A DNA stretch of 64,000 nucleotides from Phycisphaerae bacterium. Its GTDB lineage: Bacteria; Planctomycetota; Phycisphaerae; SM23-33. Below are positions 1,214 to 17,047 of this stretch, piece by piece. Under the pieces are notes generated by a model, which saw only the letters and a list, made by a program, of their open reading frames with translations, searched no databases and was not told the origin of the DNA. The stretch covers positions 1 through 64,000 of the forward strand of contig JAGXKT010000005.1 in NCBI GenBank assembly GCA_018335035.1, in the 5' to 3' direction. Within the stretch, counting starts at the first letter, position 1; each line of letters opens with the position of its first letter. The position numbers were made by a program, and so were the translations under genes.

Positions 1214-2902
<1,689 letters not shown>

Positions 2903-10022: not shown

Positions 10023-10805
10023 ATGGTCACGCCCAATGAGATACCGCACGTGCTGGCCTGCGACGTGGGCAACGCCACCGTCGAGCTCGCCGCCGTCCAC
10101 GGGGAGCAGACCACGCCACCGACGCAACACCGCATCGGCGACTTGGGCGACCTCGGCGCATCACTGGCCGTGCTGTGGGAGCAAACGCCCGAACCCAAGA
10201 AGCTCGTCGCCAGCAGCGTCAACTCAACGGCGCTGAAGGCACTGGAAGCCGCCGCCGTCGAAGCCGCCGGCACCGCGCCGCTGGTGATCGGGCGCGATCT
10301 GCCGCGCCCTCTCGATACCGACCTCGCCGAGCCGGACAGCGTCGGAATCGACCGCCTGTGTGCGGCGGTAGCGGCCTACGACCGCATCGGTACCGCCTGC
10401 GTCGTGGCGGATTTCGGCACGGCCGCGACGATTGACTGCGTCAGCGACGCAGGCATCTTCCTTGGTGGCGCAATCCTGCCCGGGCTCGCGCTCGCCGCGC
10501 AATGCCTGACCGAACACACGGCCGACCTGCCGCACGTCACGCCGCGCGAAATATCGGGCACGTTCGGCCGTACCACGGAAGAGGCGATCCTCAGCGGGCT
10601 CCTCCGCGGCGCACGCGGCGCTCTGCGCGAACTCACCGAGGCCTATGCCACCGAACTGGGCCACTGGCCGGCCGTCATCGTCACCGGCGGTGACGCCCGT
10701 TTGGTCTGTCCGAACGCTTCACAAGGCGGGCTGGTTCAGGCAATCGTCGACGATCTGGTGTTGCGGGGCATCGCGTGTGCGTACTACCGAACACTGCTGC
10801 GATGA
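10023..10805 (+). CDS. coaX: Type III pantothenate kinase
   Basis: A 260-residue ASKHA-fold enzyme that phosphorylates pantothenate, the first step of coenzyme A synthesis. Family motifs are visible: DVGNATVEL for the phosphate-1 loop, VGIDRLCA for the GxDR pantothenate-site motif, DFGTAATID for the phosphate-2 loop, and GGAILPGLALAAQ. Length is near the usual 255. The ATG at 10023 is chosen because AAGGGA lies six to eight bases upstream; an upstream in-frame start adds 14 residues that precede the ribosome site. Its TGA overlaps the next gene's ATG (ATGA), implying coupling. Confidence 0.92.
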   Translation: MVTPNEIPHVLACDVGNATVELAAVHGEQTTPPTQHRIGDLGDLGASLAVLWEQTPEPKKLVASSVNSTALKALEAAAVEAAGTAPLVIGRDLPRPLDTDLAEPDSVGIDRLCAAVAAYDRIGTACVVADFGTAATIDCVSDAGIFLGGAILPGLALAAQCLTEHTADLPHVTPREISGTFGRTTEEAILSGLLRGARGALRELTEAYATELGHWPAVIVTGGDARLVCPNASQGGLVQAIVDDLVLRGIACAYYRTLLR

Positions 10806-11941
10806 TTCCGACCGCCCACGTCACTGTCGCTAGTCCACTGACGCCGCCCGGCCGCGGCGGCATCGGCGCGATCCACTTATCCGGCCCACGATGTGAGCGG
10901 ATTCTCGCGGCCGTGTTCCGCCCGCGCGTGCCCGCCGAGCGGTGCGGCGAGCTGGCGCTGGGGTGGCTGATCGACCCCGCCGACGGTGAAGCGATTGACC
11001 AGGTTCTCGTCGCGCGCGGCAAAAACGAGGCCGAGATCAACCTCCACGGCGGGCCGGCCGTCCAGACCGTAGCGCTGGAACTGCTGGCCGCATACGGCGC
11101 CGACGTCGCCGCCGCAGACGCCACGGAAGGTCTGGACGCCAGCCATCCGCAGTGGGACAATCCCGCCATCGGCCACGAGATGCTCCGCCATCTGCCGCAA
11201 GCAGGCAGCTTGCTCGCCGCCGTGGCGCTCAGCGCACAATGGGCCGGTGGGCTCAGCCGCCTCGCCCGCCACGTGCTGGAGACAGGTGCTTCCGAAACCA
11301 CTGCCACCGATCTGCGTGCGGCCGCGCGCGGCGTTGCCGCGATGCGGCGCCTTCTGGCGCCGACGGAGGTCGTCATCGCCGGGCCGCCCAACGCCGGCAA
11401 GTCTGCCCTGGCCAACGCGCTCGTCGGTCGACAGGTCAGCATCGTCCACAATCACGCGGGCACCACCCGCGACTGGGTCCGCAGTCCGGCCGTGATCGAC
11501 GGCGTTCTCATCGGCCTGACGGATACCGCCGGCCTGTGGAGTGCGCCCGAGAGAGAGAGCGTCGATGCCGAAGCGGTGCGGCGCGCCCGCGGCCGCGCCG
11601 AGCAGGCCGACCTGGTCCTGCTTGCCTCGCCCGGCGGGACAGCGCACGTGCCGGACTGGCTCGGCGACGATCCCGTCCTGCGTGTAGCGACCAAGGCCGA
11701 CGTCAGCGATGTAAGCCCGATGGCCGACGTGGCCGTTTCGGTACGGACGGGCGCCGGGCTGGATGCGCTGCGCAAGGCAGTCGTGGCCGCGTTGGGACTT
11801 GCGGCGTTCCAGCCAACCGACCCGGCCGCGTTCACGCAACGGCAACAGCGCCTGCTGGACCGCGCGGCCGAAGCGATAGAATGCGACGATCCGGACTCCG
11901 CTCACGCCGAACTGCAAGAGCTGCTTGACGGACCGCTCTAG
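10802..11941 (+). CDS. MnmE/TrmE-like GTPase lacking the C-terminal Cys motif
   Basis: A 379-residue relative of the tRNA-modification GTPase MnmE. The N-terminal TrmE-type domain is recognisable (TPPGRGGIGAIHLSGP, EINLHGGPA). The inserted G domain has GPPNAGKSAL (G1), TTRD (G2), DTAG (G3), TKAD (G4) and SVRTGAG (G5). True MnmE is about 450 residues and ends with a conserved C-x-G-K motif needed for U34 modification; this protein stops about 30 residues earlier, at a helical segment, without it. The alpha-helical domain is also shortened. It is either a diverged paralog with another role or a degenerate ortholog. The start is coupled to coaX by ATGA; the stop overlaps the convergent helicase stop in a shared CTAG. 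Confidence 0.8.
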   Translation: MIPTAHVTVASPLTPPGRGGIGAIHLSGPRCERILAAVFRPRVPAERCGELALGWLIDPADGEAIDQVLVARGKNEAEINLHGGPAVQTVALELLAAYGADVAAADATEGLDASHPQWDNPAIGHEMLRHLPQAGSLLAAVALSAQWAGGLSRLARHVLETGASETTATDLRAAARGVAAMRRLLAPTEVVIAGPPNAGKSALANALVGRQVSIVHNHAGTTRDWVRSPAVIDGVLIGLTDTAGLWSAPERESVDAEAVRRARGRAEQADLVLLASPGGTAHVPDWLGDDPVLRVATKADVSDVSPMADVAVSVRTGAGLDALRKAVVAALGLAAFQPTDPAAFTQRQQRLLDRAAEAIECDDPDSAHAELQELLDGPL

Positions 11942-15174: not shown

Positions 15175-15182
15175 TATAGAAT
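15175..15182 (+). promoter_or_regulatory. Probable -10 of the leu transcript
   Basis: TATAGAAT at 15175-15182 contains two overlapping -10-like hexamers. The matching -35 is poor (TGGATT at 15152-15157, 17 bp away). If used, transcription starts at about 15187, only a few bases before the leader-peptide ATG at 15195. Confidence 0.45.
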
Positions 15183-15194
15183 GCAGGTGATCCC

Positions 15195-15257
15195 ATGACG
15201 ATCCGTCACCGTGACAGCTTGGGCTTGGCGCTACAGCTTGGGCTTCTGCTGCGCTGA
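15195..15257 (+). CDS. leuL: leu leader peptide (20 aa, attenuation control)
   Basis: A 20-codon frame with an AGGTGA ribosome-site-like sequence at 15185-15190 and a TGA at 15255-15257. Seven of its twenty residues are Leu (positions 9, 11, 13, 15, 17, 18, 19), encoded by TTG, TTG, CTA, CTT, CTT, CTG, CTG. TTG, CTA and CTT are likely uncommon codons in a GC-rich genome, which would make translation sensitive to leucyl-tRNA supply. It lies directly upstream of leuA and is followed by alternative hairpins and a T-run, the classical amino-acid attenuation layout. The product itself is expected to have no function beyond ribosome positioning. Confidence 0.88.
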   Translation: MTIRHRDSLGLALQLGLLLR

Positions 15258-15327
15258 CGGATCGCGGACCGAAGGTAATTGGCCACCGGCCCCGCGATTC
15301 TTGGATGTCGCGGGGTCGTTTTCGTTT
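15199..15327 (+). promoter_or_regulatory. Leucine-responsive transcription attenuator of leuA
   Basis: Four segments can pair in mutually exclusive ways. Segment 1 (15199-15208, CGATCCGTCA) pairs perfectly with segment 2 (15255-15264, TGACGGATCG). Segment 2 (15261-15267, ATCGCGG) pairs with segment 3 (15292-15298, CCGCGAT), forming an antiterminator. Segment 3 (15290-15297, CCCCGCGA) pairs with segment 4 (15308-15315, TCGCGGGG), followed by TCGTTTTCGTTT, forming the terminator. Ribosome stalling at the Leu codons between segments 1 and 2 would block 1:2, allow 2:3 and permit leuA transcription. Confidence 0.88.
15290..15327 (+). terminator. Attenuator terminator upstream of leuA
   Basis: An 8-bp GC-rich stem (15290-15297 with 15308-15315), a 10-nt loop and a T-rich tail at 15316-15327, all before the leuA start. 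It is the 3:4 structure of the attenuator. Confidence 0.85.
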
Positions 15328-15358
15328 GGCGGCAGGGCTGCCGCCGGGAGTGGACGCC

Positions 15359-17047
15359 ATGATTCAAAAGACCATACCCAAATACGCGCCGACGGCGGCG
15401 ATCGACCTGATGGACCGCCAATGGCCCGCGCGGCAGGTGACGCGCAGCCCGCAGTGGTGCTCGGTAGACCTGCGTGACGGCAACCAGGCGCTGCCCAATC
15501 CGCTCGACTCCGACGACAAGCTGGTGTACTTCGAACTGCTCAAGCGGATCGGCTTTCGCCACATCGAGGTGGCGTTCCCTTCGGGCAGCCAAGCCGACTT
15601 CGCCTTCACGCGGCGGCTGATCGACGAACGCCGTCTCGATGACGACATGTTCATCATGGTGCTGACACAGTGCCGAGATGCACTGATCGATCGGACGTTC
15701 GAGGCGATCGCCGGCGCCCCGCGAGCGATCGTGCACGCCTATTGCGCCGCCAGCGAACTGCACCGCCGGCAGGTGTTCGACACCTCGCGCGACCAGCTCC
15801 TGACGATGGTTCGACGCTCCGTGGAACAGATCCGCCACTTGGCCGACGCCGCCGACGGCGACATTCGGCTGGAATTCAGCCCGGAGGAATTCACGGACAC
15901 GGACATGACGTTCTCACTGGAGCTTTGCCAGGCCGCGTTTGACGCCTGGGGCCGGGCCACGCCCGACAAGCCGGTGATTCTCAACCTGCCCGCCACGGTC
16001 GAGCGCCGCCCGCCCAACCAGTACGCCGACATGATCGAGTGGTTCTGCCGGAACTTCCCGAATCGCAACGAGGTGACGATCTCGGTGCATTCGCATAACG
16101 ACCAGGGCATGGCCGTGGCGGCGACGGAACTGACGCTGCTTGCCGGCGCCGACCGCGTCGAGGGGGCCTTGTTCGGGCACGGCGAGCGCACGGGCAATGT
16201 GGACCTGGTCACGGTGGCGAACAACCTGCGATCGCGCGGGGTCGAGACGGGCCTGGACTTCTCGAATCTTCCCGAGATCGCCGAGACAATCCAGCGGCTG
16301 ACGGGGATGCCGATCGCGCCGCGCCAACCGTACGCGGGGGAATACGTGTTCACGGCGTTTTCGGGCTCGCACCAGGACGCCATCCGCAAGGGGTTCAACC
16401 GCCTCGACGAGGCGCCGGCCAAGTTCGCCGCCGGGTGGAAGGTCCCCTACCTGCACATTGATCCCACGGACCTCGGGCGCAAGTACGAGGGGCTGATCCG
16501 CATCAACGCCCAGTCGGGTAAAGGCGGAGCGGCGTGGGTGCTGGAGCGGGACTTCGAGCTGGAGCCGCCGCGCGCCATGCAGACGGAGATCGGCGCCGCC
16601 GTCCAGCGGTACAGTGACAAGGTCAGCCGTGAGGTCACCGCCACCGAGGTGTACAAGGTTTTTCACAAGGAATTCGTCACGCCCGACGGGCCATACGAGT
16701 TAATCGGTTACTGGCCCCGGCCGGACGATACCAACCCCACGGAGATACACGGTGAGGTCCGTGCGCGGATCAACGGCGTGGAGAAGCAGGCGGGCGCCGA
16801 CGGCAACGGGCCGGTGTCGGCCTTCGTTCACGCAATGCAGGCGCTCGGCGCCGAGCCGTTCAGCGTGGATGACTATCACGAGCAGGCCGTCGGACGCGGC
16901 GCCGATGCGCGAGCGGTCGCCTACGTACCGCTGAAATTCGACACCGGCGAGGTGCTCTTCGGGGTGGGGATGGACACGAATATCGATCAGGCGGCCGTGC
17001 GGGCGATCATCGCAGGGCTCAATCGCAGAGCCCGGCGTCAGGACTGA
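15359..17047 (+). CDS. leuA: 2-isopropylmalate synthase (LeuA, type 2)
   Basis: A 562-residue enzyme that condenses acetyl-CoA with 2-oxoisovalerate, the committed step of leucine synthesis. The TIM-barrel shows the metal-binding and catalytic segments SVDLRDGNQAL near residue 40, HSHNDQGMAV and GHGERTGNVDL; a linker and a C-terminal LeuA allosteric dimer domain follow, the site of leucine feedback in the family. Length and the YVFTAFSGSHQDAI segment fit the longer type 2 class. The ATG at 15359 lies after the attenuator. No leuCD or leuB follows; its stop overlaps the convergent membrane-protein gene by ten bases. Confidence 0.96.
   Translation: MIQKTIPKYAPTAAIDLMDRQWPARQVTRSPQWCSVDLRDGNQALPNPLDSDDKLVYFELLKRIGFRHIEVAFPSGSQADFAFTRRLIDERRLDDDMFIMVLTQCRDALIDRTFEAIAGAPRAIVHAYCAASELHRRQVFDTSRDQLLTMVRRSVEQIRHLADAADGDIRLEFSPEEFTDTDMTFSLELCQAAFDAWGRATPDKPVILNLPATVERRPPNQYADMIEWFCRNFPNRNEVTISVHSHNDQGMAVAATELTLLAGADRVEGALFGHGERTGNVDLVTVANNLRSRGVETGLDFSNLPEIAETIQRLTGMPIAPRQPYAGEYVFTAFSGSHQDAIRKGFNRLDEAPAKFAAGWKVPYLHIDPTDLGRKYEGLIRINAQSGKGGAAWVLERDFELEPPRAMQTEIGAAVQRYSDKVSREVTATEVYKVFHKEFVTPDGPYELIGYWPRPDDTNPTEIHGEVRARINGVEKQAGADGNGPVSAFVHAMQALGAEPFSVDDYHEQAVGRGADARAVAYVPLKFDTGEVLFGVGMDTNIDQAAVRAIIAGLNRRARRQD

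Follow-up and report, generated by a model that had tools for sequence, protein, structure and literature searches.

Known leaders of leucine genes

The closest described counterpart of the leader analyzed here is the enterobacterial leu attenuator (leuL of E. coli and Salmonella; Rfam Leu_leader, RF00512). It joins a Leu-rich leader peptide with rare CUA control codons, mutually exclusive 1:2, 2:3 and 3:4 pairings and an intrinsic terminator, and its target is leuA. The Salmonella attenuator uses CUA, and a change of CUA to CUG lowered its sensitivity (Carter et al. 1986, as cited in PMC1183508). The enterobacterial trp and his attenuators follow the same logic: region 2 becomes free when the ribosome stalls at the control codons and is hidden once the ribosome reaches the stop, and superattenuation occurs when there is no translation (PMC1183508). 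In Streptomyces, leuS attenuators carry a Leu leader peptide with an antiterminator and a terminator before the gene (Seliverstov et al. 2005, PMC1262725). Actinobacterial leuA leaders form a pseudoknot, the "LEU element", for which classical attenuation was deemed unlikely (PMC1262725). In the attenuation and leader-peptide literature, taken in its open-access part so that priority is not established, we found no description of an attenuator for Planctomycetes or Planctomycetota; the closest work on the group is a survey of leader-gene distances (PMC4833913).

The leader described here precedes leuA in a Phycisphaerae contig, of which 64,000 nt were analyzed (the window). It is real and conserved and almost certainly a leucine attenuator, ordinary in mechanism and undescribed in its setting.

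Anatomy of the leuA leader

The sequence, read directly, contains an ORF of 20 sense codons, 7 of them Leu (ATG ACG ATC CGT CAC CGT GAC AGC TTG GGC TTG GCG CTA CAG CTT GGG CTT CTG CTG CGC TGA), and is thus rich in codons for the amino acid that the pathway produces. This agrees with the initial annotation, which had counted seven Leu codons in a 20-codon leader, five of them TTG, CTA or CTT, upstream of leuA. No Leu-dense short ORF of this kind arose in 1000 shuffles of the upstream region. The features are listed in Table 1.

Table 1. Features of the leuA leader in the window
Feature	Position	Strand	Remarks
-10 promoter-like element TATAGAAT (TATAGA or TAGAAT)	15175-15182	+	context CCGATA(TA)AT conserved
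Leader ORF MTIRHRDSLGLALQLGLLLR (then stop)	15195-15257	+	7 Leu codons; homologues at ~38 other loci
Region 1, 5' arm of 1:2	15199-15208	+	overlaps leader codons 2-5
Leu control codons TTG15219, TTG15225, CTA15231, CTT15237, CTT15243, CTG15246, CTG15249	15219-15251	+	
Region 2, pairing with region 1 or region 3	15255-15267	+	stop codon inside
Region 3, antiterminator 3' arm and terminator 5' arm	15288-15300	+	2:3 and 3:4 covariation
Region 4, terminator 3' arm	15308-15317	+	terminator scan: stem 15287-15318
U-run GTTTTCGTTT of intrinsic terminator	15318-15327	+	terminator scan
leuA, 2-isopropylmalate synthase, type 2 (yeast/actinobacterial type)	15359-17047	+	NCBIfam

Three mutually exclusive pairings can be drawn, with an intrinsic terminator at 3:4. 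The 1:2 helix joins CGATCCGTCA (15199-15208) to TGACGGATCG (15255-15264) by 10 perfect bp. The core of 2:3 is ATCGCGG (15261-15267) with CCGCGAT (15292-15298), 7 bp; it extends to 9 bp including one G-U (15259-15267 with 15292-15300). The core of 3:4 is CCCCGCGA (15290-15297) with TCGCGGGG (15308-15315), 8 bp; it extends to 10 bp including one G-U (15288-15297 with 15308-15317), and the U-run follows. The core helices are those proposed earlier (10, 7 and 8 bp plus T-run), and two of them can be lengthened. The computed fold of the leader region has z = -3.6; computed without a ribosome, 1:2 and 3:4 both form.

The leuA gene starts at an ATG at 15359, with GGGAG 8 nt 5' of it. Its product matches PRK03739 (E 5.7e-209) and leuA_yeast (1.9e-191) in NCBIfam, and its best named relative is the LeuA2 of a Sedimentisphaerales MAG (Phycisphaerae, Planctomycetota; 65% identity). 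The gene is solitary, the next one being on the opposite strand, and has no second full-length copy in the genome. The ribosome-binding site of leuA is separated from the terminator by an extra G+C-rich hairpin (GGCGGC...GCCGCC, 15328-15346), which is not obvious in relatives, e.g. L005. Elsewhere in the window, 10775-11938 encodes a short MnmE/TrmE-like GTPase (388 aa, TrmE_N plus GTPase domain) whose ORF overlaps the end of a type III pantothenate kinase gene.

The -10 element puts the predicted transcription start ~5-8 nt before the leader ATG; the stretch named in the initial annotation begins at 15175, in this -10 region. A consensus scan upstream of the leader found no full sigma-70 promoter, the -35 being weak. 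The same motif, as CCGATATAAT/CCGATAAT, is found 5' of most of the 38 homologous leaders, many of which have a purine-rich ribosome-binding site. Their predicted 5' UTRs measure 0-28 nt (median 12). A leader starting about eight bases from the mRNA 5' end, as had been suggested, is therefore plausible as a prediction; judged by these predicted starts, the short 5' end is neither peculiar within the leader family nor a fixed feature of it.

Comparison with described systems

The leader works like the enterobacterial Leu_leader but is not a member of that family by covariance model. No Rfam family matched it, at gathering scores or up to E 10, the enterobacterial Leu_leader and the T-box included; the two listed hits are chance matches far below the family cut-offs. 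Relative to the enterobacterial leu attenuator, region 1 here corresponds to codons 2-5, the stop codon falls within region 2, and the loop of 1:2 carries the Leu codons; the leuA is a solitary type 2 gene, and related leaders also serve leuS. In trpL, region 1 contains the control codons, whereas here it precedes them, and the amino acid is another one.

The initial annotation had placed the best descriptions of the design in Proteobacteria and Actinobacteria. The enterobacterial leu leader is indeed a good precedent; the actinobacterial comparison is looser, given the LEU pseudoknot (PMC1262725). The Streptomyces leuS attenuators resemble in architecture the leaders found before leuS in eight relatives, but the leuS of the window's own genome lacks such a leader. 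The LEU element shares the Leu-rich upstream ORF before leuA, but the computed fold here shows neither its pseudoknot nor its base stem onto the Shine-Dalgarno box, and the LEU element has no terminator.

Conservation and covariation

Type 2 leuA (leuA2) is present in 14 of the family's 34 other genomes, and a homologous leader stands before nearly all of these genes whose upstream DNA is available. Examples of the homologous peptides are MIRQPNSLSLLLLLGLLLR, MIRRNDSLGLALLLALLLR and MVRRINNLPALLLLGLLLR, each ended by a stop. A covariance model built on 13 leuA2 leaders of the family found further leaders in the same order. T-runs follow the hairpin in the homologues, weaker ones in L007, L008 and L010. 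Outside the order, the model found nothing convincing in the class: its matches there reach E 7.5e-8 at best and were not counted, since they look like chance GC-rich hairpins, many with a length of 70-95 nt and several on both strands.

Covariation was examined in 28 distinct homologues, cut to the four regions, after four reverse-strand or partial model matches to the terminators of L007-L010 had been dropped. All three helices came through this check, which the initial annotation had called for, with 94-95% of cells paired and double changes in each. In 3:4, 95.3% of cells are paired, with eight doubly changed pairs (25 cells; 0/500 shuffles); in 2:3, 95.2%, with three doubly changed pairs (5 cells; 0/500 shuffles); and in 1:2, 93.9%, with 3 doubly changed pairs (3 cells), a count reached in 5/500 shuffles. 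These shuffle figures overstate significance and are not probabilities, since the homologues are related. The covariation of 2:3 is the least biased, because the model behind the alignment includes 1:2 and 3:4 without 2:3. When partners were slid by 1-3 columns, pairing fell to 13-55%.

The 1:2 helix varies little, and its first nine pairs are retained in nearly all 28 homologues. In L013, region 2 has A in place of G, and the partners in region 1 and region 3 have both gone from C to T; L072 and L059 have A-U instead of G-C as the central pair of 1:2. The leuA2 leader L015 has a diverged peptide (MTTQCTNLRRLSLLGLLSPLNGLVL, then stop) and other helix sequences, and retains all three pairings, two of them of 6 and 8 bp and the third a terminator stem of ~10 bp that includes one G-U.

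The Leu control codons

Conservation of Leu codons before leuA in relatives and the rarity of the control codons had both been put forward as checks, and both were borne out. Where Leu is the majority residue, 77 of the 116 codons that differ from the commonest one are themselves Leu codons, so that Leu is kept through synonymous codons. CTA is the rarest Leu codon, making up 1.7% of the Leu codons in 44 window ORFs; usage was taken from these ORFs and from the genes next to leaders. Among 283 leader Leu codons CTA accounts for 17.0%, against 1.0% in the adjoining genes (odds ratio 21, Fisher p 4e-29), and CTC is depleted (6% vs 31%). Of the 23 ungapped leaders, 12 have CTA and 5 have TTA as codon 12 (13 in the window). 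Taken alone, the window leader has a weak codon bias, with 5 of 7 Leu codons other than CTG or CTC (P 0.016).

Ribosome positions and proposed mechanism

The geometry was modeled on the assumption that the ribosome footprint extends 15 nt to each side of the P site. Of 38 leaders, 25 have their first Leu at codon 8; the window leader, with one additional codon, has it at codon 9. A modeled ribosome at this codon covers 15201-15231, and with it 8 of the 10 region 1 nucleotides. Whichever Leu codon the ribosome occupies, 6-9 of the 9 nt of the 2:3 arm are free; at the stop codon, where 15237-15267 is covered, none is. Under this footprint region 2 is thus hidden by a ribosome at the stop and free when the ribosome is at the control codons. 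A stall at Leu codons 3-7 leaves region 1 uncovered, and exclusion of 1:2 would then rely on the intervening ribosome. With region 3 out and region 4 not yet made, the antiterminator reaches ~-22 kcal/mol, nested hairpin included; once region 4 is out, the terminator is favored at most stall positions (~-27 kcal/mol). As the terminator is the more stable at equilibrium, antitermination has to come about kinetically, in line with the standard model.

Very probably, then, the leuA leader senses charged leucyl-tRNA and controls leuA by ribosome-mediated transcription attenuation. From the observed anatomy, conservation, covariation, codon bias and geometry we infer the following course of transcription start, pausing, stalling, termination in the cell and response to leucine. 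RNA polymerase would start just 5' of 15195 and a ribosome would load immediately on the leader ORF. When Leu-tRNA is plentiful, the ribosome would reach the stop at 15255 and hide region 2, 3:4 would form, and transcription would end at the U-run. When Leu-tRNA is scarce, the ribosome would stall within the Leu run, in the first place at codon 9 and at the rare CTA codon 13. The stalled ribosome would cover region 1 or keep it apart, and region 2 would be free to pair with region 3 before region 4 emerges, so that transcription continues into leuA. If no ribosome loads, 1:2 and the terminator would form (superattenuation).

Leucyl-tRNA-sensitive control of leuA had been proposed at the outset. 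Helix covariation, Leu-codon conservation, CTA enrichment and geometry support it. The attenuator reading also fits the biology, because the leader family precedes, besides leuA2, only type 1 leuA (leuA1) and leuS, plus one methyltransferase gene.

Alternative explanations

It is improbable that the short ORF acts by translational coupling, by reinitiation or through Rho, with the hairpin as an ordinary terminator or a spacer. Work that spans many phyla, Planctomycetes among them, has proposed reinitiation for leader genes close to structural genes, but over distances of 10-11 nt (PMC4833913); here 101 nt separate the leader stop from the leuA start. Neither reinitiation nor Rho needs 2:3 together with 3:4, yet both helices are conserved, covary and share region 3. 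The hairpin followed by a U-run also argues against this reading.

An actinobacterial-type LEU element, with its pseudoknot, would suit the enzyme, which is of the actinobacterial/yeast LeuA type, and that element likewise comes with a Leu-rich upstream ORF (PMC1262725). It is nevertheless very unlikely: the computed fold pairs the Leu codons inside the 1:2 hairpin and not with the leuA ribosome-binding site, an intrinsic terminator is present and conserved, and the same leader family also stands before leuA type 1 and leuS. That a random ORF came to lie before a terminator in a GC-rich intergenic region is hardly credible, even though folding comes readily to GC-rich sequence. The three-helix arrangement appeared in 0/3000 dinucleotide shuffles of 15188-15327 and, in a scan of both strands, is unique to the leuA leader in the 64-kb window; chance is refuted by conservation in most genomes of the family.

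Genes behind the leader family

The leader family is followed by leuA2 at 16 loci, leuA1 at 13, leuS at 8, a methyltransferase gene at one and a contig end at one. Examples of the labels were confirmed by NCBIfam (leuA_bact, leuS_bact), and the remaining leuS labels come from the N-terminal sequence; labels are uncertain at L055 (contig end), L052 (first codons alone visible) and L072. In L064 and L072 a SAM-dependent methyltransferase-like gene lies directly behind the leader; leuA1 comes next in L064, the one leuA1 locus of the 13 with this arrangement, and L072 has no leuA within 2.9 kb. In some genomes leuA and leuS each have a leader of their own. In the window's own genome, inspection of leuS and ilvB revealed no comparable leader.

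There is about an even chance that one ancestral leucine-attenuator cassette has been reused in the order, the same leader RNA controlling leuA1, a non-orthologous leuA2 that replaced leuA1 in other genomes, and leuS. The leader tree does not tell whether the leuS leaders had one origin. In genome G004, the leuA1 and leuS leaders (L073 ~1022-1199 and L053 ~971-1142) share a near-identical in-frame insert, LSSLRSRSS.FGGVGLLR, with a hairpin; it may stem from gene conversion, from recent copying or from two insertions of a repeat.

Other leaders in the genome and the phylum

A second candidate in the same genome, outside the window, precedes cimA (citramalate synthase; G000:C52, L002 ~2450-2720, minus strand). 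Its leader, MRLSQTRTLCETATAVGVECVCQDGRPGGCPAIAIIAVVAPRVP, ends in ...AIAIIAVVAPRVP and a stop. The 2:3 pairing is TGCCTTAGGGC/GCCCTGAGGCA (11 bp with one G-U) and the 3:4 terminator GGCCCTGAGG/CCTCAGGGCC (10 bp), followed by a T-run. Other genomes of the order likewise have related Ile/Val leaders (RAGII...VP, then stop) and terminators in front of cimA, and in a class relative (L131) the Ile-codon-rich cimA leader MNIQNIIISIIINIGGD, closed by a stop, has a strong terminator after it.

Elsewhere in the phylum, a Leu-rich short ORF (ATG-started, with 6 or more Leu in 12 residues) stands in 7 of 28 leuA1 upstream regions, where shuffles would lead one to expect 0.15. Such ORFs before leuA type 1 in other families, unlike the window leader in sequence, are those of L094, L098, L100, L103, L107, L114, L116 and L120; clear terminators are also found at L094, L098 and L107. 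Going by these ORFs, the leucine leader device looks common rather than exceptional in the phylum. This qualifies the initial annotation, which had called the mechanism apparently not commonly described in Planctomycetota.

Implications

Ribosome-mediated amino-acid attenuation is extended, with covariation, to a group for which no description was found, and enterobacterial design rules (CUA control codons, footprint-sized spacing) recur in it. If the cassette reading is true, the sensor would predate the enzyme that it now precedes, and the regulon would have grown through copying of the leader. That enzymes of two types follow one conserved leader, which also stands before leuS, offers a usable case of regulatory RNA evolution. 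Since attenuation needs a ribosome close behind RNA polymerase, the leader is also indirect evidence for transcription-translation coupling, which matters if the cells are planctomycetes with complex internal membranes.
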